Assembly (NCBI GenBank): GCA_949288735.1
Contig: CASELE010000008.1
Location: 1-51,354, forward strand
Direction: 5' to 3'
Source: an uncultured Alistipes sp.
GTDB lineage: Bacteria; Bacteroidota; Bacteroidia; Bacteroidales; Rikenellaceae
DNA length: 51,354 nt
Shown piece after piece: positions 13,315 through 23,770 of the stretch. A model generated the notes under the pieces. It saw only the letters and a list, made by a program, of their open reading frames with translations, was not told where the DNA came from and ran no database searches. The translations under genes were made by a program, and so were the position numbers. How positions within the stretch are numbered: position 1 is the stretch's first letter; each line of letters opens with the position of its first letter.

Positions 13315-14397
13315 CTATTCGGGACGCGACTCGCAGTAGGCGCAGCGCCACCCCTCGCCCGCGCGACGGAAGAGCCGGTCCACATCCTCCGTCGCCGAGA
13401 TGCAGCGCGGATTCGGACAGCGCATCTCGTTCACCGAATAGGGTTCGGAGAAGAGCGGCGTGCATTCGAGCGGACGATTCTCTCCGGCCCATTTCAGCAA
13501 CGTGTATATCAGAGCCATACGCACGAACTTGCCGTTCTCCACCTGTCTGAAGTAGGCAGCGCGCGGATCGTTGTCCACCGCACGCGCGATCTCGTTCACG
13601 CGCGGCAGCGGATGGAGCACGATCATATCCTTCCGCGCGGCGCGCATCTTCTCCGGATCGAGCACGAAGCTGTCCTTCACGCGTTCGTACTCCTCGCGGT
13701 CGACGAAACGCTCGCGCTGCACGCGCGTCATGTAGAGTATGTCGAGTTCGGGCATCGCCTCCTCGAGCCGGCGCACCTCGCGGAATTCGAGCGCCGACCC
13801 TTCGGCCAGCTCCTGCTGCATGTAGTCGGGCAGTCGCAGCTCCTCGGGCGAGATGAGCACGGCACGCACCCCCTCGTAGCGCGAGAGCGCCCGCAACAGC
13901 GAGTGGACCGTACGCCCGAACTTCAGGTCGCCGCAGAAGCCTACGGTGAGATGGTCGAGCCGGCCCTTCTCGCGGCGGATCGTCAGCAGGTCCGTAAGCG
14001 TCTGTGTGGGATGGGCATGGCTGCCGTCGCCCGCATTGATGACGGGGATACCCGCATACTGCGACGCCACGAGCGGCGCCCCCTCCTTGAAGTGGCGCAT
14101 GGCGATGATGTCGGCGAAGCAGCGGATGACACGCACCGTGTCGGCCACCGTCTCGCCCTTCGAGACGGAGGAGGAGGCCGCATCCGAGAAGCCGATGACC
14201 GTACCGCCCAGCTCGAGCATGGCCGAGGTGAAACTCAGCCGCGTACGCGTACTCGGCTCGTAGAAGAGCGTGGCCAGTTTCTTGCCCTTGCACGCCTCGC
14301 GGTAGCGGTCGCGGTGGGCGATGATGTCTTCGGCCAGCGAGAGGATCTCCTCGATCTCCGCGACCGTCAGGTCGGTAGGTTCGATCAGATGTTTCAT
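13315..14397 (-). CDS. pyrB: Aspartate carbamoyltransferase catalytic chain with C-terminal PyrI-like zinc domain
   Basis: PyrB condenses carbamoyl phosphate with aspartate. The catalytic part has [20 protein letters not shown] and HPLPRVNEI. The protein is 360 aa, longer than the roughly 300-310 aa of a plain PyrB. The extra C terminus carries four cysteines at 327, 332, 352 and 355 (C-x4-C-x19-C-x2-C). It begins CPNPRCIS, closely matching the zinc domain of the E. coli regulatory chain PyrI. No PyrI nucleotide-binding domain or separate pyrI is present in the window. It is the last gene of the pyr operon, 50 bases after pyrE. The ATG at 14397 ([11 protein letters not shown]) was chosen because the longer frame upstream is pyrE DNA in another register. 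Confidence 0.95.
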
Positions 14398-14447
14398 CGT
14401 GATGATTCCTGCTTGTTGTCGTATCGGCCGGCAGCCGGAGCCGGAAG

Positions 14448-15083
14448 CTACCGCATCCAGCTCTCGTCCGACGGATTGTCGCGGAAGCGGAGCAGCCGCT
14501 CGCGGTCCTCCGGACGGATATACCCCTCGGCGGCCGCCACCTCGACCAACACGTCGAGATTCGACAGGCTCCAGTTCGTGACACGCGCCTCGCGCAGACG
14601 TTCGAGACCGCGCCGCATGCTGTAGGTGAAGATCGAGACCACGCCGAGCACCTCGGCACCCGCCTCGCGCAGCGCCTCGACCACCTCGACGCACGAGCCG
14701 GCCGTCGAGATCAGATCCTCGACCACCACCGCCTTCTGTCCCTTGTCGAGACGTCCTTCGATGCGGTTGCCGCGGCCGTGGTCCTTCGAGCCGCTGCGCA
14801 CGTAGCCCATAGGCAGGTCGAGCAGCGTCGCCGTGATGGCCGCATGGGCGATGCCCGCCGTCGAGGTCCCCATCAGCACCTCCGCTTCGGGAAACTTCGT
14901 ACGGACCAGCTCGGCGAGCCCCGCCTCCACGTGACGGCGCACCTCGGGAGCCGAGAGCGTCAGACGGTTGTCGCAATAGATGGGGCTCTTGATGCCGCTC
15001 GCCCACGTAAACGGCTCCTCGGGGCGCAGGAAGACCGCGCCGATCGAAAGCAGATCTTTCGCTATCGTCTTTTCCAGTTCCAT
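14448..15083 (-). CDS. pyrE: Orotate phosphoribosyltransferase
   Basis: PyrE attaches orotate to PRPP to give OMP. The 211-aa protein has the N-terminal [16 protein letters not shown], the lysine-bearing loop [17 protein letters not shown] and the PRPP motif [12 protein letters not shown]. It is 45 bases after the glutaredoxin-like gene and 50 bases before pyrB, within the pyr operon. Length and motifs are normal. Confidence 0.97.
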
Positions 15084-15128: not shown

Positions 15129-15389
15129 CTACTCCAGCGCCCGTCTCAGGAGTGCCTCCACCTCTTCGGGGCGGATGCCTCCCTCGTGCACCTTTTCGCC
15201 GCCCACATAGAAGGTCGGCACATAGTAGTAGTCGTAGCGGTCGGCCTCTTCGGGGCGCTCCGACTCCTCGACGCATTCGACAGCCACGGCCGCCAGTTCG
15301 GGATGGGCCGTCTTCACCTCGTCGATATAGCGCAGCGCCTTCTTGCAGAAGGGGCAGTTTTTCAGGTAGAAAAGTTTTACCGGTTTCAT
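15129..15389 (-). CDS. Small glutaredoxin/thioredoxin-like protein within the pyr operon
   Basis: An 86-aa single thioredoxin-fold protein. It begins MKPVKLFYLKNCPFCKKAL with the redox pair Cys12-Pro-Phe-Cys15, and has the cis-proline loop VPTFYVGG at about 57-64. No signal peptide is seen, so it should act in the cytoplasm as a thiol-disulfide or glutaredoxin-like reductant. It lies between pyrF (83 bases upstream) and pyrE (45 bases downstream) on the same strand, hence probably co-transcribed. It is not a pyrimidine enzyme. A link to the Fe-S/flavin dihydroorotate dehydrogenase is only a guess. The ATG at 15389 was chosen because upstream codons do not look like the fold. Confidence 0.85.
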   Translation of the reverse strand: MKPVKLFYLKNCPFCKKALRYIDEVKTAHPELAAVAVECVEESERPEEADRYDYYYVPTFYVGGEKVHEGGIRPEEVEALLRRALE

Positions 15390-15472
15390 CTCTGTTCCCG
15401 TCGATGGTTCGTACTCCGCGGCGACCCGCAAAAGTCCCGCCGCGACTCCGGCCGGAGGTCCTTTCGGGACGC

Positions 15473-16180
15473 TCAGCCGCAGAACTCCTCCACACAGCGG
15501 CGGTAGGCCGCCACGGGGTCGGCCGCCTGCGTGACCGGACGTCCCACGACGATGTAGTCCGATCCGATCTCGCGCGCCCGGGCGGGAGTCGTCACCCGCA
15601 CCTGGTCGGCCACGTCGCCGTCGGCGAAACGCACGCCGGGCGTCACCGTAAGGAAGCCGGCACCGCACGCCTCGTGGACCATGCCCGCCTCGAGCGGCGA
15701 GCAGACCACGCCGTCGAGCCCCGCCTCACGGGCGTTGCGCGCATAGTGTACGATGGTCTCGTTCATCGAGGCATCCACGAGCAGTTCGCGCCGCATGCGC
15801 TCCTCGCTCGTGGAGGTGAGCTGCGTCACGGCGATGAGCAGCGGCCGCGTGCCGTCGGCACGCGTGAGCCCTTCGCGGGCGGCACGCATCATCTCGACCG
15901 TACCGGCGGCATGGACGTTGCACATGTCCACGTCAAGCCGCGAAAGGACGGCCATCGCCTTCCGCACGGTGTTGGGAATGTCGTGGAGCTTCAGATCGAG
16001 AAAGATCCTGTGTCCCCGGCGCTTGATCTCCCGCACGATCTCCGGGCCCTCGGCATAGAAGAGCTCCATGCCGATTTTCAGAAAGGGCTTGCGCGCCTCG
16101 CCGACAAACAGGTCGAGGAAACGGAAGGTCTCCTCCGCGCTTGCGAAATCGCAGGCTATGATGACGTCTCGCTGCATCAT
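15473..16180 (-). CDS. pyrF: Orotidine 5'-phosphate decarboxylase
   Basis: PyrF decarboxylates OMP to UMP, the final step. The 235-aa protein is the short form. It has [11 protein letters not shown] at the N terminus, the catalytic D62-x-K64-x-x-D67 in [10 protein letters not shown], and the phosphate-binding end [13 protein letters not shown]. Two ATGs in tandem (16180 and 16177) could serve as the start. A possible internal promoter lies in the 107-base gap to pyrD. Confidence 0.97.
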
Positions 16181-16229
16181 GATATTATGTATCGTTTTTC
16201 GCGGACGGGCCTTCGGCGGCTCCGTCGTA

Positions 16230-16261
16230 CAAATATACCTCTTTTTTGCCGTTTTTCCGAA
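16230..16261 (-). promoter_or_regulatory. Possible internal promoter before pyrF
   Basis: TATATTTG (16237-16230 on the minus strand) matches the TAnnTTTG box exactly. Twenty bases upstream is TTCG, only a partial match to TTTG. It lies in the 107-base gap between pyrD and pyrF, the largest gap in the operon, and could drive pyrF, the glutaredoxin-like gene, pyrE and pyrB independently. Confidence 0.45.
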
Positions 16262-16287
16262 CGGCGTCCTCTTTTTCCGCCGCCCGA

Positions 16288-17202
16288 TCAGCCGGCGACG
16301 CCGATGATGTCGCGCAGACGTTCGATACCGAGCCGCTCCATCTCGCGGGGCAACGACTCGACAATCTCCTTCGCGGCATAGGGGTTGCGCAGATTTTCGG
16401 CCCCCACCTGCACCGCCGTGGCACCGGCCATCATCATCTCGATCACGTCGCGCGCCGAACGCACGCCGCCGCACCCCATCACCGGCACCGAGCAGGCCCG
16501 GGACACCTGCCAGACCATGCGCACGGCCACCGGGAAGATGGCGGCACCCGAGAAACCGCCCATCGTATTGGCGATGACCGGACGCCGACGCCGCACGTCG
16601 ATGCGCATGCCGAGCAGCGTGTTGATGAGACAGATGCCGTCGGCGCCCGCCTCTTCGCAGGCGCGGGCTATGGAGACGATGTCCGTCACGTTGGGCGAGA
16701 GCTTGATATAGACCGGCTTGGCAGTCACGGCCTTCACGGCCCGCGTCACCTCGGCGGCCGCCTCGGGCGAAGTGCCGAACGACATGCCGCCGTGGCGAAC
16801 GTTGGGGCACGAGACGTTCACCTCGATGAGCCCCACCTGGTCCTCCTTGTCGATCCGCTCGCAGCAGTAGGCATACTCCTCTATCGAGAAGCCCGATATG
16901 TTGGCTATCACCGGCTTGTGGAAGAAGCTCCGCAGGCGCGGCAGCTCCTCGGCAATCACGGCGTCGATGCCGGGGTTCTGCAGCCCCACGGCGTTGATCA
17001 TCCCTTCGGTGCACTCGGCGATACGGGGCGTGGGATTGCCGAAGCGCGGCTCGCGCGTGGTCCCCTTGAACGAGAAGGAGCCCAGGATGTTGATGTCGTA
17101 GAACGAGCGGAACTCGTTACCGTAGCCGAAGGTTCCGCTGGCCGGAATCACCGGATTGTCCAGTTCGAGGCCGCTCAGCACGACCGATGTATCTACTGCC
17201 AT
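16288..17202 (-). CDS. pyrD: Dihydroorotate dehydrogenase, class 1B catalytic subunit
   Basis: PyrD oxidises dihydroorotate to orotate with FMN. In class 1B it passes electrons through PyrK to NAD+. The catalytic base is Cys132 in [20 protein letters not shown] and [12 protein letters not shown] are typical of the family. The 304-aa length and adjacent pyrK indicate class 1B. The start ATG at 17202 lies inside the end of pyrK, so the frames overlap by 10 bases. It is preceded by GGGAGGTGAT, an unusually strong Shine-Dalgarno for this group, which also encodes the PyrK C terminus. Confidence 0.96.
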
Positions 17203-17936
17203 ATCACCTCCCTCTTTGTGAGCACGGGACCCTCCTTGCAGATGCGTTTGTAGCCGTCGCGGGTCTTGCACGAACAGCCCATGCAGGCGCCGAAGCCGCA
17301 TCCCATGCGCTCCTCGAACGAGAGTTCCCCCTCGGTCGGGGCGACCTCGGAGAGCGCCCGCAGCATCGGCATCGGCCCGCAGGCATAGAAATAGTCGTAA
17401 TCGAAGCCGCCCGCAGCGAGCAGGTCGGTCACGAAGCCCCGCGTGCCGGCCGAACCGTCGGCCGTCGTCACGTACGTATCCGCCCCCAGAGCCCTGAACT
17501 CGTCGACATAGAAGAGCTCGTCGGCCGTATTGAATCCCAGCACCACCGTCACCGGCAGACCCGAGGCGAGGAGCCGGCGCGTCAGGCCATAGAGGGGCGG
17601 CACCCCCACGCCGCCGCCGACGACGAGCGGACGGCGCGCCCCCGTATCGGTACGGAAGCCGTTGCCGAGCCCCGTCAGCAGGTCGAGCCGTTCGCCCGGC
17701 CGCATGCGCGACATCTGCGCGGTACCGTCGCCCACGACCTTGTAGACGAGCGTGAGCCGCTCCGCATTCCAGTCGCACACCGAGATCGGACGCCTCAGAT
17801 AACACCCTTCGAGGGCGATGTTGACGAACTGTCCGGGGGCCGTGATGCCCCGCGTGTCGCCCGCGAGCACCATCCGCCACACGGTGGCGGTCAGCGGCTC
17901 GTTGGAGCGTATCTCGTATATTCCCTTTCCGTACAT
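17193..17936 (-). CDS. pyrK: Dihydroorotate dehydrogenase electron-transfer subunit
   Basis: PyrK carries FAD and a 2Fe-2S cluster and links PyrD to NAD+. The 247-aa protein has a ferredoxin-reductase fold. RRPISVCD is the flavin-binding segment, and VVGGGVGVPPLYGLTR is the glycine-rich nucleotide motif. The C-terminal cysteines MGCGFGACMGCSCK and RICKEGP form the cluster motif. It starts 14 bases after carB and overlaps pyrD by 10 bases. Confidence 0.95.
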   Translation of the reverse strand: MYGKGIYEIRSNEPLTATVWRMVLAGDTRGITAPGQFVNIALEGCYLRRPISVCDWNAERLTLVYKVVGDGTAQMSRMRPGERLDLLTGLGNGFRTDTGARRPLVVGGGVGVPPLYGLTRRLLASGLPVTVVLGFNTADELFYVDEFRALGADTYVTTADGSAGTRGFVTDLLAAGGFDYDYFYACGPMPMLRALSEVAPTEGELSFEERMGCGFGACMGCSCKTRDGYKRICKEGPVLTKREVIWQ

Positions 17937-17950
17937 CGTATCGCTCCTCC

Positions 17951-20900
17951 CTACTCCGCGTCGATGGTCGAGACACCCAGCGTGATCTCCTCGAGCACGT
18001 CGAGCAGCACCTGCACGGTCTCCAGGGCCGTAAAGACCGTGACGTTGTTTTCCACGGCCGTACGGCGGATCTCGTAGCCGTCCAGACGCGTGTTGTGCTG
18101 GTTGATGTCGATCGTATTGATCACGTAGCTCACATGGCCCTGGCGCAGCGCGTCGATGATCTCCGAGCTTCCCTCGCTCAGCTTGCGCCGCGTGCGGGTG
18201 CGTATGCCGTGCCGGCGCAGGAACTCGGCCGTGCCGGTCGTCGCCTCGATGTTGAAGCCCAGGTCGTAGAAACGGCGCACGAGCGGCAGCGCCTGCTCCT
18301 TGTCCTGATCGGCGATCGTCACGAATATCGTACCGTAGTTGCAGACATTCATGCCTGTGGCCTGCAACGCCTTGTAGAGGGCGCGCGTCAGCTTGTCGTC
18401 GTAGCCGATAGCCTCGCCCGTCGACTTCATCTCGGGCGAGAGGTACGAATCCATGCCGCGGATCTTGGCGAACGAGAAGGCCGGAGCCTTCACGTACCAG
18501 CGCATCTTCTCCCGGCCGCAGACCTCCGTGATACCCTGCTCGCGCAGGCTGTGGCCCAGGATGACCTGCGTGGCGATGTGGGCCATGGGGACGCCCGTCG
18601 ACTTCGAGAGGAAGGGGACCGTACGCGACGAACGGGGGTTGACCTCGATGACGTAGACCCCGTCGTCGCCCGCCACGATGAACTGGATGTTGTAGAGGCC
18701 CACGATGCCGATGCGCAGACCCAGCTTCACGGTGTAGTCCACGATCTTGCGCTTCGCCTGTTCGCTCACGCTGAAGGTCGGATAGACGCTGATCGAATCG
18801 CCCGAGTGGATACCCGTACGCTCCACGTGCTCCATGATGCCCGGAATGAAGACGTCATGGCCGTCGCAGATGGCGTCCACCTCGAGCTCCTTGCCCATGA
18901 TGTAGCGGTCGACCAGTACGGGCGAATCCTCGTTTACCTCGACAGCCGTCTGCAGATAGTGGCGCAGCCGCTCCTCGTTCGAGACGATCTGCATCGCGCG
19001 GCCGCCCAGCACGTAGCTCGGGCGCACCAGCACCGGATAGCCGATACGGGCAGCGGCCCGCACGCCCGACTCGATATCCGTGACGGCTTCGGCCTCGGGT
19101 TGCGGGATGCCCAGCTCCTCCATGATCCGCTCGAAACAGCCGCGGTCCTCGGCGTTGCGGATGGCCTCGCAATCGGTGCCGATGATCGGTACGCCCAGCT
19201 CGGCGAGCGGCTCGGCCAGGTTGATGGCCGTCTGGCCGCCGAGCGATACGACTATCGCCTCGGGCTTTTCGAGCCGGATGACGTTCATCACGTCCTCGAC
19301 CGTCAGCGGTTCGAAATAGAGCTTGTCGCTCGTGGTGTAGTCCGTCGAGACGGTCTCGGGGTTGTTGTTGATGATGATCGCCTCGTAGCCCGCCTCGCGG
19401 ATCGACCAGATGGCGTGTACGGTCGAATAGTCGAACTCGACGCCCTGGCCGATGCGTATGGGGCCCGAACCGAGCACCACGATTTTCTTCCGGCCGCTCA
19501 CGACCGACTCGTTCTCCTCCTCGTAGGTCGAGTAGAAATAGGGAACGTAGGAGTCGAACTCGCTGGCGCAGGTGTCAATCATCTTGTAGACGGGGAAGAT
19601 GCCGTGCTGCTCGCGCAGACGGTACATCTCGTACTGCGAGCGGCCCCATAACATGCCTATGTATTTATCGCTGAAGCCAAGGCGTTTCGCATCGCGGAGC
19701 GTCTCCACGTCGTCGGGATGTTCGCGGACCGTCCGCTCGAATTCGACGATGTTCTTGAACTTCTCGAGGAAGAACATGTCTATTTTCGTACGGTTGTAGA
19801 CAAGCGACAGGTCCGTGCCCATGCGGATGAGCTGCGCGATGGCGTAGAGACGGTCGTCCGTCCCTTCGCGGATGTAGGCCAGCAGCCGGTCCTCCGACCA
19901 GTCGTCGAACTTGCGGTGCCAGATGTGGCAGACGCCCGTCTCGAGCGAACGCACCGCCTTCAGGAGCGACTCCTCCATCGTGCGGCCCACGGCCATCACC
20001 TCGCCCGTCGCCTTCATCTGGGTGCCCAGCTTGTTCGAGGCGTCGCTGAACTTGTCGAAGGGGAAGCGGGCGATCTTCGTCACCACGTAGTCGAGCGTCG
20101 GCTCGAACGAGGCGGGTGTATTGGCTATGCGGATCTCGTCGAGCGTGAGACCCACGGCAATCTTCGCGCTCACGCGCGCGATGGGATAGCCGCTCGCCTT
20201 CGAGGCAAGGGCCGACGAACGCGATACGCGGGGGTTCACCTCGATGAGGTAGTATTTGAACGAGAGGGGATCCAGCGCGAACTGCACGTTGCACCCTCCC
20301 TCGATCTTCAGCGCGCGGATAATCCGGAGCGCCGAATCGCGCAGCATCTGGTATTCGCGGTTGGTGAGCGTCTGGCTCGGGGCCACCACGATCGAGTCGC
20401 CCGTATGGATACCCACCGGGTCGATATTCTCCATGTTGCAGACGGCGATGGCCGTATCGTTGCTGTCGCGGATCACCTCGTACTCGATCTCCTTGTAGCC
20501 CTTGATGCTCTTCTCGACGAGCACCTGATGCACGGGCGAGAGGAAGAGCGCGTTGCGCATGATCTCGCGGAACTCGGCCTCGTTGTCGGCGAAGCCGCCG
20601 CCCGTACCGCCCAGCGTGAAGGCCGGGCGAAGCACCACGGGGTAACCTATCCGCTCGGCCGCCGCGAGACCCTCCTCCATCGAGTTGGCGATCTCCGAGG
20701 GAAGCACCGGCTCGCCCAGCGACTGGCACAGCTCCTTGAAGAGCTCGCGGTCCTCGGCCCGCTCGATGCTGTCGAACGACGTGCCGAGAATCTCGACCTG
20801 GCACTCCTGCAGCACCCCCTTGCGGGCGAGCTGCACCGCGAGGTTGAGGCCCGTCTGGCCGCCCAGGCCCGGCACGATGGCGTCGGGACGCTCGTAGCGG

Positions 20901-21133
20901 ATGATCTTGGCGACGTATTCGAGCGTCAGCGGCTCCATGTAGACCTTGTCGGCGATATGCGTGTCGGTCATGATGGTCGCGGGATTGGAGTTGACGAGCA
21001 CCACCTCGTATCCCTCCTCCTTCAGGGCGAGGCACGCCTGCGTGCCCGCATAGTCGAACTCGGCGGCCTGACCGATCACGATCGGGCCCGAACCGATGAC
21101 CATCACCTTGCTGATATCCGTTCTCTTAGGCAT
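17951..21133 (-). CDS. carB: Carbamoyl-phosphate synthase large chain
   Basis: CarB makes carbamoyl phosphate from bicarbonate, ATP and the ammonia delivered by CarA. At 1060 aa it has the usual duplicated ATP-grasp halves, each starting with a VxGSGPIxIGQ motif (near residues 12 and 559), and a C-terminal MGS-like allosteric domain. [19 protein letters not shown] and [15 protein letters not shown] are the paired active-site segments. The start overlaps the carA end by 8 bases. Because the gene lies in the pyr operon, the pool probably serves pyrimidine synthesis first. Arginine use cannot be judged here. Confidence 0.97.
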
Positions 21134-22217
21134 TTCTGTGCTCCTCCATCATTTGAATGAACTTGTCGAAAAGATAGCCGCTGTCCTGCGGGCCGGGGGC
21201 GCTTTCGGGATGGTACTGCACCGAGAAGACGCGCTCCTCGGGACACTCCAGCCCTTCGGCCGTGCCGTCGAGCAGGTTCACGTGCGTCAGCCGCAGAGGG
21301 GTGCCCTCCAGCGAATCGGTCGCCACGGCGAAGCTGTGGTTCTGGCTCGTAATCTCTATCTTCCCCGTGGCGAGGCACTTCACCGGATGGTTGCCGCCGC
21401 GGTGTCCGAACTTCATCTTGAAGGTCCGGGCGCCGTAGGCACGCGCAATCATCTGGTGGCCCAGGCAGATGCCGAACATCGGCACGCGGCCGCGGAGCGC
21501 CCGCACCTTCTCCACCACTTCGGGAACGTCGGCCGGATCGCCCGGGCCGTTCGAGAGGAAAACGCCGTCGGGCCGGAAGGCGAGCAGCTCCTCGACCGAT
21601 ATGTCGTAGGGGACGACCGTCACGTTGCACCCTTTCTCGTTGAGCTTGCGGATGATGTTGTACTTGATGCCGCAATCGACGGCCACCACGTCGTAGCGGT
21701 GGTTCGCCGTGCGCGAGAACCACCGCTTGCGACAGCTCACGCGCCGCACCATGTCGTGACGCAGCTCGGCGGCGCGCAACCGCGCCAGCGCCTCGTCGCG
21801 GGGGGTCTCCGCATCGGTAATCATCACCTTCTGCGTGCCCCGGTCGCGGATGATGCGCACCAGACGCCGCGTGTCGACGCCCCAGACGGCCGGAATGCCG
21901 TACTCCTCGAAGACCTCCGCGAGCGTCTTCGTATAGCGGAAGTTCGAGGGGGTGTCGTTGTATTCGCGCACGATCATGGCGCCGAGCGTCGGGAACTTAG
22001 TCTCGTAGTCCTCCTCGGCCGTGCCGTAGTTGCCGATCAGCGGATAGGTCATCACCACCGCCTGGTCCGTATATGAGGGGTCGGAGAGAATCTCCTGATA
22101 ACCCACCATCGAGGTGTTGAAGACGATCTCGACGACCGTCTCGCGGTCGGCGCCGAAGCCGTAGCCGTAGAACTCCTCGCCGTTTTCGAGGAGAATCTTT
22201 TTCGTATAGGGTTTCAT
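21126..22217 (-). CDS. carA: Carbamoyl-phosphate synthase small (glutaminase) chain
   Basis: CarA hydrolyses glutamine and channels ammonia to CarB. The 363-aa protein has the CarA-type N-terminal domain ([17 protein letters not shown]). It is followed by a class I glutaminase with nucleophile Cys251 (FGICLGHQ) and His336/Glu338 (QYHPES). It overlaps carB by 8 bases and begins 69 bases after pyrC, in the pyr operon. Confidence 0.97.
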
Positions 22218-22286: not shown

Positions 22287-23561
22287 TCATCCGTGCAGCG
22301 CTTCGTCGCGCCAGACCTCGCGACCCTGCACCACCGTGAGCATCGTGCGGCCCCGGGCCTGCCAGCCCGCAAAGGGTGTCGCCCGTCCCTTCGAAAGAAA
22401 GGTGTCGGGATCCACCTCGTAGTCGGCGCCGAGGTCAAAGACCGCGAAGTCGGCCGGCTCGCCCGCCTCGATGCGGCCGCCGCCCAGCCCGAAGAGCTGC
22501 CGCGGCCGGATCGACATGAGCTCCATGAGCCGGCCGAAGGGGAGGATACCCCCGCAGACCAGATGGCGGTAGAGCACCCCGAAGGCGCACTCCAGTCCCA
22601 CGACCCCCATGGCGCTCCCCTCCAGACCGCGTCCCTTCTCGGCGGCCGTATGGGGGGCATGGTCCGTGGCAATCGCATCGATCGTACCGTCGAGAATGCC
22701 CTCGACGAGCGCCGCACGGTCCTCGGCCGAACGCAGGGGCGGGTTCATCTTGAAACGGCCCTCCTCGCGCAGGTCCGCATCGGTCAGCAGCAGGTAGTGG
22801 GGAGCCGTCTCGCAGCTCACGCGCAGCCCGCGAGCCTTGGCCGCACGCACGAGCGCCACGCTCTCCTTCGTCGAGACGTGGCACACATGGTAGCGGCATC
22901 CCGTCCGGCCGACGAGCGCGAGGTCGCGCTCCACCTGCCGCCACTCGCTCTCGGAGCAGATGCCCCGGTGGCCGTGCCGGCGGCAGTATTCACCGTCGTG
23001 GATGTAACCGCCGCGCAGCAGTTCGTCCACCTCGCAGTGGGCCACGATGGGACGGTCGACCGCCGCGGCGCGACGCATCGCCTCCTCCATCAGCTCCTCC
23101 GACTGCACGCCGCGCCCGTCGTCCGAGAAGCCGGCCACGAACGGGGCCAGCGCCTCGAAGTCGACCAGCTCGCCGCATCCTCGCTGCCCCACCGTAATCG
23201 AGGCGTAGGGCAGCACCCGCACCCGGGCGTCGCGCCGGATAATCCCGAGTTCCTCGGCCAGGTGGTCGGGCGAATCGGGCGCCGGCGTAAGGTTGGGCAT
23301 GGCGCAGACGGTCGTATAGCCGCCGTGGGCGGCGGCCGCCGTACCGGTGGCCACGCTCTCCTTTTCGGGGTGGCCGGGTTCGCGCAGGTGGACATGCACG
23401 TCGACCAGGCCCGGCACGAGACGGAGACCTTCGAGCCCGACGATGCGGTCCCCCGCCGCGGGGGTCGTGTCGTCGACGAAGCGTCCATCCTCGACGGCGA
23501 CGGTGCGTCGTTCGAAGCGACCGTCGCGATAGACTTCGGCGTGCGTGTAGAGCGTCTTCAT
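22287..23561 (-). CDS. pyrC: Dihydroorotase, first structural gene of the pyr operon
   Basis: PyrC cyclises carbamoyl-aspartate to dihydroorotate. At 424 aa it is the long dihydroorotase type, like that of Bacillus, and not the roughly 350-aa E. coli type. The metal site is intact: HxH in DVHVHLREPG, the later histidines in YHVCHVSTKES, and Asp in AIATDHAPH. The start is the ATG at 23561 (MKTLYTHAEV). A TTG five codons upstream was rejected because it lies in the T-tract of the leader terminator. The U-run of an attenuator-like hairpin ends 13 bases before this start. Confidence 0.95.
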   Translation of the reverse strand: MKTLYTHAEVYRDGRFERRTVAVEDGRFVDDTTPAAGDRIVGLEGLRLVPGLVDVHVHLREPGHPEKESVATGTAAAAHGGYTTVCAMPNLTPAPDSPDHLAEELGIIRRDARVRVLPYASITVGQRGCGELVDFEALAPFVAGFSDDGRGVQSEELMEEAMRRAAAVDRPIVAHCEVDELLRGGYIHDGEYCRRHGHRGICSESEWRQVERDLALVGRTGCRYHVCHVSTKESVALVRAAKARGLRVSCETAPHYLLLTDADLREEGRFKMNPPLRSAEDRAALVEGILDGTIDAIATDHAPHTAAEKGRGLEGSAMGVVGLECAFGVLYRHLVCGGILPFGRLMELMSIRPRQLFGLGGGRIEAGEPADFAVFDLGADYEVDPDTFLSKGRATPFAGWQARGRTMLTVVQGREVWRDEALHG

Positions 23562-23574
23562 GAGCGGAGCGAGC

Positions 23575-23604
23575 AAAAAAATAGGGCAACCGGAACAGTT
23601 ACCC
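23575..23604 (-). terminator. Attenuator-like intrinsic terminator in the pyrC leader
   Basis: On the minus strand GGGTAACTG (23604-23596) pairs over 9 bp with CGGTTGCCC (23592-23584) around a TTC loop. TATTTTTTT follows, ending 13 bases before the pyrC ATG. A second copy of CGGTTG at 23614-23609 can pair with TAACTG of the terminator's 5' arm, leaving a 7-base loop. That alternative hairpin is mutually exclusive with the terminator and could act as an antiterminator. Confidence 0.75.
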
Positions 23605-23706
23605 CAAACAACCGGCGATGCCGAACCCCGTCGAAACGAACGACTCCGTCCCGTGGTCCTGGCGCCGGCGACGGCGCAGCGGAAGGGTGCGGAAAAGATG
23701 TTTCAT
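23599..23706 (-). CDS. Candidate 35-aa leader peptide of the pyr operon
   Basis: An ATG at 23706, about 26 bases after the predicted transcription start, opens a 35-codon frame. It has an Arg run (LRRRRRQ) and ends CLG. Its TAA (23601-23599) falls inside the 5' arm of the leader terminator, so a ribosome reaching the stop would cover that arm. E. coli pyrBI is controlled by a 44-aa leader peptide translated towards its attenuator under UTP control. The arrangement here is analogous in layout only. I know of no sequence homologue. Confidence 0.5.
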   Translation of the reverse strand: MKHLFRTLPLRRRRRQDHGTESFVSTGFGIAGCLG

Positions 23707-23738
23707 GGCAAGGCTCTCGGCGTTCGCTCTTTCGGCTG

Positions 23739-23770
23739 CAAAGGTAGCATATTTTCACCGTGCGTGCAAA
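23739..23770 (-). promoter_or_regulatory. Bacteroidetes-type promoter of the pyrimidine operon
   Basis: On the minus strand TTTG (23770-23767), 20 bases, then TACCTTTG (23746-23739) fit the Bacteroidetes consensus exactly. Transcription would start near 23732, giving a leader of about 170 nt that contains the candidate leader peptide and the attenuator. It is divergent from zupT. Confidence 0.8.

Follow-up and report, generated by a model that had tools for sequence, protein, structure and literature searches.

A Conserved Putative Transcription Attenuator, Likely UTP-Sensing, Upstream of the Pyrimidine Operon in Alistipes and Its Relatives

The Pyrimidine Operon and Its Leader

The window analyzed here is a stretch of 51,354 nt (contig CASELE010000008.1) from the 1.66 Mb genome of an uncultured Alistipes sp., and its minus strand carries, after a short leader, the genes pyrC, carA, carB, pyrK, pyrD, pyrF, pyrE, and pyrB in this order (table 1). 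A first-pass annotation of the window had described a complete pyrimidine operon, and this description holds: pyrC, carA, carB, pyrD, pyrF, pyrE, and pyrB each score above an NCBIfam cut-off, and pyrK is clear but stays below the cut-offs of its models. Among the pyrC sequences compared, that of the window is closest to a pyrC from another uncultured Alistipes (79% identity). Within the flanks available for 49 named loci from relatives, the gene content is pyrC-carA-carB at 37 loci, pyrC-pyrK-pyrE at six, pyrC-carB at four, and pyrC-carA and pyrC alone at one each. A small frame on the minus strand between pyrF and pyrE (15129–15530) has a CPFC motif and looks glutaredoxin-like by eye; it has no NCBIfam match at 1e-10.

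Table 1. Features of the pyrimidine operon and its leader in the window
Feature	Position	Strand	Details and basis
Bacteroidota-type promoter	23739..23770	-	TTTG (-33 box) 23770-23767 and TACCTTTG (-7 box) 23746-23739; sequence
Leader ORF, 35 codons, MKHLFRTLPLRRRRRQDHGTESFVSTGFGIAGCLG	23599..23706	-	ATG 23706, stop TAA 23601-23599; sequence
Small internal hairpin GCGCCG-UCGC-CGGCGC that may pause RNA polymerase	23662..23677	-	Contains Arg-codon run
U-rich stretch ahead of terminator, weak here	23607..23631	-	7 U of 25; conservation in 70 leaders
Terminator hairpin, 11 pairs, loop of 3	23582..23606	-	-13.9 kcal/mol; 1/200 shuffles as stable
Terminator T-tract, seven T's	23575..23581	-	Sequence; 13 bases to pyrC ATG at 23561
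pyrC, dihydroorotase, first operon gene	22287..23561	-	TIGR00857 367.5 bits, cut-off 279; ATG at 23561
carA	21126..22217	-	TIGR01368 460.9 bits, cut-off 307
carB	17951..21133	-	TIGR01369 1474.7 bits, cut-off 1027
pyrK (dihydroorotate dehydrogenase electron transfer subunit)	17193..17936	-	NF000799 E 4.3e-72, 242 bits, below cut-off 314
Stretch containing pyrD, start not fixed	16288..17217	-	NF005574 428 bits, cut-off 269
Stretch containing pyrF, start not fixed	15473..16372	-	NF001273 287.8 bits, cut-off 193; match from residue 65
pyrE	14448..15083	-	TIGR00336 131.7 bits, cut-off 106.8
Stretch containing pyrB	13315..14409	-	TIGR00670 346 bits, cut-off 237

The leader begins with a promoter of the Bacteroidota type, the -7 box of which fits the consensus TAnnTTTG. 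A sigma-70 scan lists nothing at this place, the Bacteroidota box lying outside what such a scan covers; a promoter upstream of the frame, as claimed in the first-pass annotation, is nevertheless present in the form of these boxes. Given the placement of the TAnnTTTG box in the part of PMC9723704 that describes it, transcription would start near 23734. The 35-codon frame with its TAA inside the 5' arm of a terminator hairpin is as had been described, and so are the hairpin and its T's 13 bases ahead of the pyrC ATG, except that the hairpin has 11 pairs and not the nine originally counted. The leader of the window as a whole folds slightly better than its shuffles (z -1.53, 17/200 as stable). 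A small internal hairpin lies within the frame, and a 4-pair hairpin is predicted at the same place in an alignment of 26 Alistipes-like sequences, in which one pair is U-A in 13 sequences, C-G in eight, and broken in five, which lends this putative element modest support.

Conservation of the Leader among Relatives

Loci containing pyrC were gathered from a species collection (80 loci: 49 from Rikenellaceae or kin and 31 from Bacillota) and from genomes of the genus of the window. Among the Rikenellaceae and window-genus genomes, 84 loci were gathered, of which L102, at a contig end, and six with identical upstream regions were dropped, leaving 77; dropping five identical leaders left 70 distinct ones, which are not independent of each other because they include near-copies. 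Our rule for conservation called for a promoter box and a terminator together with a frame of 25 codons or more, so that all three features are selected for in the 70 leaders, as is the T-tract, which the terminator search requires. The first-pass annotation had proposed a comparison of leaders among relatives, and this comparison bears out the frame and the terminator: with GTG starts allowed, 75 of the 77 loci conform to the rule (72 with ATG starts only), and they show, besides the promoter box and the terminator, a frame that stops at the hairpin and a U-rich stretch (see later).

The two loci that fail, L030 and L095, are without a terminator and apparently represent one genome, G002, in two records. 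This genome has pyrC-carA-carB and yet no leader, which counts against our preferred explanation. Repeated stretches resembling AACCTTTTCGATAAACCG occur ahead of pyrC in this leaderless relative (in L030, upstream of 3001). Ten loci were fetched later; nine of them conform to a looser rule that tolerates a stop as far as 25 nt beyond the hairpin, and eight stay within a limit of 12 nt, one of these repeating the leader of L031. The exception, L277, fails the looser rule owing to its five T's, and a hairpin is present by eye.

The TAnnTTTG box, itself a selection criterion, lies 23–41 nt ahead of the leader start in the 70 distinct leaders. The frame is 27–49 codons long (median 35), starts with ATG in 65 leaders and with GTG in five, and ends with TAA (41), TAG (19), or TGA (10). 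Under a strict rule (a frame of 27 codons or more that stops no more than 12 nt from the hairpin start), 69 of the 70 leaders qualify, and dinucleotide shuffling of the sequence from box to hairpin gives an expectation of 5.73; in these 69 the stop lies between -12 and +12 relative to the hairpin start. The frame of L110 (stop +33) and, among the loci fetched later, that of L284 (stop +30) read through the entire terminator, as Escherichia coli pyrL does; these stops beyond the hairpin are counted against our preferred explanation despite the precedent. The terminators comprise 42 distinct stems that are complementary save for the single mismatch that the search allows at most, and hence pairing has been kept despite sequence change. 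Among single-base codon changes in 29 nearest pairs, which share sequences, 89 are synonymous compared with 50.3 expected, and this excess argues that the leader frame is probably translated. The leader peptide also shows some sequence constraint of its own.

R1, a covariance model built from Alistipes-like leaders only, matches 19 of 61 genomes of the genus once each, and all 19 matches lie just ahead of pyrC, although some of these leaders were in its training set. In 118 genomes of the order it gives two matches, one in the window and one in G159; the latter is false, as it sits by eye at the terminator after an HU-like gene. A genome from another genus of the family, G225, is without an R1 match, but a leader is present there by the looser rule.

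A U-Rich Stretch and a Start-Proximal Motif

The 25 nt immediately before the hairpin are richer in U than the remaining leader in 70 of 70 leaders (Wilcoxon 3.6e-13, for leaders that are not independent), with a mean of 12.1 U; other terminators in the same loci are preceded by 6.1 U of 25 (n=7, two being both strands of one hairpin). U makes up 0.47 of the penultimate and 0.60 of the last 10-nt block before the hairpin, a rise that is accompanied by a fall of C to 0.05. All three codon positions are raised in U, the third most (0.53 vs. 0.29). The tract TTTTATTAGGGTA occurs in 18 of the 70 leaders, in 13 of which it is read in one frame (ending in TAA in 12 and in TAG in one) and in five in another frame that leads to a TAG. 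Enrichment at every codon position and the reading of the same tract in two frames indicate that nucleotides, and not a peptide, are selected. No residue or codon is universal in the last eight codons, the most frequent being Phe (54/70) and TTT (45/70).

The window and L016 tie for the lowest U content among the 70 leaders, and L033 and L054 have three U in the last 12 nt before the hairpin; both observations count against our preferred explanation. Because the stretch is at its weakest in the window, it is easily missed there, and the first-pass annotation overlooked this key feature, while its proposal of leader-peptide attenuation is backed by conservation.

At the other end of the frame, many leaders, such as that of L045 (2801–2959) and 41 others, carry nACAUAnC at codons 6–8; the motif is absent from the leader of the window. 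AUA accounts for 42 of 50 early Ile codons (codons 5–10), whereas farther along the leaders it accounts for five of 70 and in pyrC genes for 171 of 1,321. AUA and the wobble base of codon 6 are conserved, yet codons 6 and 8 differ between leaders in their first base, so that the motif more probably acts as a signal at the nucleotide level or through a slow codon than as a peptide signal; that it serves as a timer for the ribosome is a guess. A UTP-dependent attenuator does not account for the motif, and we count it against that explanation.

A Likely UTP-Dependent Attenuator

Attenuation of the operon through a leader peptide is strongly supported by the conservation pattern. We propose that 23575–23770 constitutes a putative transcription attenuator, conserved among relatives, that probably senses UTP in the manner of E. 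coli pyrBI, with the ribosome blocking the terminator when RNA polymerase pauses. The short leader frame would be translated up to the terminator hairpin. When UTP is low, RNA polymerase would pause in the U-rich stretch just ahead of the hairpin, whereupon the trailing ribosome would close up and, at its stop, cover the 5' arm, allowing the pyr genes to be transcribed. When UTP is ample, polymerase would cross the U stretch fast and outrun the ribosome, so that the hairpin would form first and transcription would end at the terminator.

Passages of PMC5021804 and PMC4824070 describe a ribosome close to a terminator as preventing formation of the hairpin, and in the E. coli system of the latter the terminator is reported to be repressed when a ribosome sits at a stop less than about 27 nt away. 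With this reach, a ribosome at stops located -12 to +12 from the hairpin start would cover the 5' arm. We infer that the ribosome itself, and not an antiterminator hairpin, would block termination: averaged over the 70 leaders, upstream sequence is as complementary to the terminator arms as shuffled sequence is (mean duplex z -0.02 for the 5' arm and 0.13 for the 3' arm), leaving no antiterminator hairpin on average, and the value lies below -2 sd in seven leaders for the 5' arm and in two for the 3' arm.

The first-pass annotation had left open whether the ribosome or an alternative hairpin controls termination. The ribosome-coupled form fits the frame, the stop position, and the U stretch, whereas the alternative-hairpin form, that is, a switch or riboswitch acting without translation, now has only a slim chance of being correct. 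It had been suggested by a CGGTTG repeat (23614–23609 and 23592–23587), which is indeed present and from which a competing pairing can be drawn; L067 has a similar repeat, and L004, the leader nearest to that of the window, is by its printed values among the seven with 5'-arm complementarity beyond 2 sd. The repeat and the alternative stem are nevertheless confined to these two of the 70 leaders, the window and L067, and the hairpin was therefore rejected as not conserved. Such a switch also gives no reason for the leader frame, and at the Rfam gathering score only tRNA was found in the window and 20 loci from relatives, with no credible weak match either.

Readings that keep the translated frame were weighed in the same way. 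A general sensor of translation status, in which the ribosome blocks the terminator but the variable is translation initiation or speed (e.g., at the conserved AUA) and not UTP, is unlikely in our judgment, though it draws on the conserved frame and stop position and on the conserved AUA at codons 7–8 (p 1e-18, early vs. later Ile codons). It leaves unexplained both the U enrichment immediately ahead of the hairpin, which extends over all three codon positions, and the restriction of the element to pyr operons, every R1 match in the genus genomes lying just before pyrC. Even less probable is an arrest peptide, in which the nascent leader peptide would stall the ribosome in response to a pyrimidine or to a metabolite related to arginine; the codons are under mild purifying selection and I-[STAP] is frequent near the N-terminus, which speaks for it, but the C-terminal peptide differs from clade to clade and where the same nucleotides are read in another frame, and frame length varies as well. 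The change of frame over TTTTATTAGGGTA led us to reject this candidate.

Attenuation by an amino acid such as arginine, as in trp/his-type attenuators, we hold to be very improbable. The leader of the window does encode RRRRR in five Arg codons, and carAB also supplies arginine synthesis. This run, however, is part of the internal hairpin GCGCCG/CGGCGC, and by eye it has no counterpart of that length in any other of the 70 leaders, on which grounds arginine attenuation was rejected. The leaders resemble trp/his-type attenuators in combining a leader peptide with a terminator, but they share no run of regulatory codons, have no amino acid or codon common to all in the last eight codons, and have no mutually exclusive antiterminator on average; moreover, their stop lies at the hairpin, whereas amino-acid attenuators, according to the portion of PMC4824070 that treats them, keep more than 20 bp from the stop.

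Comparison with Known Systems

UTP-sensing attenuation is textbook matter for enteric bacteria. In E. coli rph-pyrE, translation of the upstream gene stops close to the terminator, and the leaders described here likewise end translation near a terminator; they are, however, dedicated leaders, whereas the upstream gene there is a complete one (annotated as truncated in K-12). The likeness to E. coli pyrBI and its leader pyrL is closer. Both have a dedicated short frame that reaches the terminator, a U-rich stretch upstream of it, an intrinsic terminator before the first of the downstream pyrimidine genes, and no antiterminator in the model, and the distance from leader start to hairpin is 88 nt in pyrL compared with a median of 100 nt (82–138) in the 70 leaders, measured with the same ruler. 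The passage of PMC3641672 on UTP-sensing attenuation in enteric bacteria describes the pyrBI leader as a short frame that overlaps a uridine-rich stretch and has UTP alter coupling there. The leaders of the Rikenellaceae differ in that the U stretch abuts the hairpin, that the stop lies at the hairpin base in 69 of 70 whereas the pyrL stop lies 44 nt past the hairpin start, and that the first gene is pyrC and the phylum another; no likeness of sequence was noticed.

As the first-pass annotation had remarked, no equivalent appears to have been described for the phylum: our literature search, which reached mostly non-subscription papers so that an earlier description is possible, found neither UTP attenuation nor such a leader in Bacteroidota. 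Nor did it find a published test of ribosome-polymerase coupling in Bacteroidota. Clues of leader-peptide attenuation ahead of amino-acid operons in Flavobacterium are reported in PMC9723704, and short frames within long 5' UTRs of B. thetaiotaomicron in PMC7366714. If the proposed mechanism is true, ribosome and RNA polymerase would be closely coupled in this phylum, and the leader would be a natural reporter showing whether ribosomes trail the polymerase at close range in a phylum that is dominant in the gut.

PyrR, Ancestry of pyrC, and Distribution of the Leader

Bacillus-type pyr operons are of the same kind as the operon of the window, the pyrC of which groups with Clostridia, and they are attenuated by PyrR. 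No PyrR protein (NF003549) was found in a search at 1e-10 of 78 Bacteroidales genomes including that of the window, and none of 37 relatives has one over the cut-off, 29 having weak matches only (26.8 bits or less vs. 138); the controls, which include B. subtilis, are over the cut-off. At the Rfam gathering score, neither the window nor any of 20 loci from relatives contains a PyrR RNA element. PyrR attenuation was rejected on both counts. A phylum sample of 80 genomes has 49 with PyrR over the cut-off, 16 of the 18 from the same class among them; in that class the protein is often encoded just ahead of pyrB.

In a tree of 57 pyrC sequences built with a quick method, 18 sequences from other Bacteroidales (of 29 available) lie on one side of a branch with a support of 100, and 22 Rikenellaceae and 17 Clostridia sequences lie on the other, so that the Rikenellaceae pyrC is of the Clostridial type. 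This grouping suggests that the pyr operon was exchanged across phyla, in one direction or the other. It thus appears that a Clostridial-type pyr operon, in cells without PyrR, is under the control of a leader peptide that is absent from Rfam, which makes the leader a candidate for a new Rfam family. The proposed mechanism, if true, would explain how pyrimidine synthesis is controlled in PyrR-less Alistipes and their kin, and one operon type may have moved between protein-based and ribosome-based control.

Bacteroidota initiate translation without Shine-Dalgarno sequences. A passage on Flavobacterium in PMC9723704 supports such initiation. We put forward tentatively, as possible though not probable, a broader scenario in which a UTP sensor evolved independently in Bacteroidota, family-wide, on a Clostridia-type pyr operon in PyrR-less cells, with tight transcription-translation coupling in the absence of Shine-Dalgarno initiation, a U stretch directly adjoining the hairpin, and a start-proximal nACAUAnC that would time the ribosome.

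Beyond the family, the leader was found at none of 29 pyrC loci from other Bacteroidales families (one from each of 29 of the 72 genomes with a match), one of which has a terminator. In a comparison that covered terminator and frame, 11 of 31 Clostridial pyrC loci have a terminator within 200 nt and five have a frame that ends at the terminator, two of these with the same upstream region; the 20 of these 31 loci that were scanned are without a PyrR RNA element. Among 73 pyrB loci from other Bacteroidales families, 37 have none of the features, 30 have a terminator only, and six (L152, L153, L164, L168, L195, and L203) have a box, a short frame, and a terminator. Several of the terminators at pyrB loci come, by eye, after the gene that precedes pyrB, and the six arrangements may therefore be due to chance or may represent separate attenuators that arose independently.
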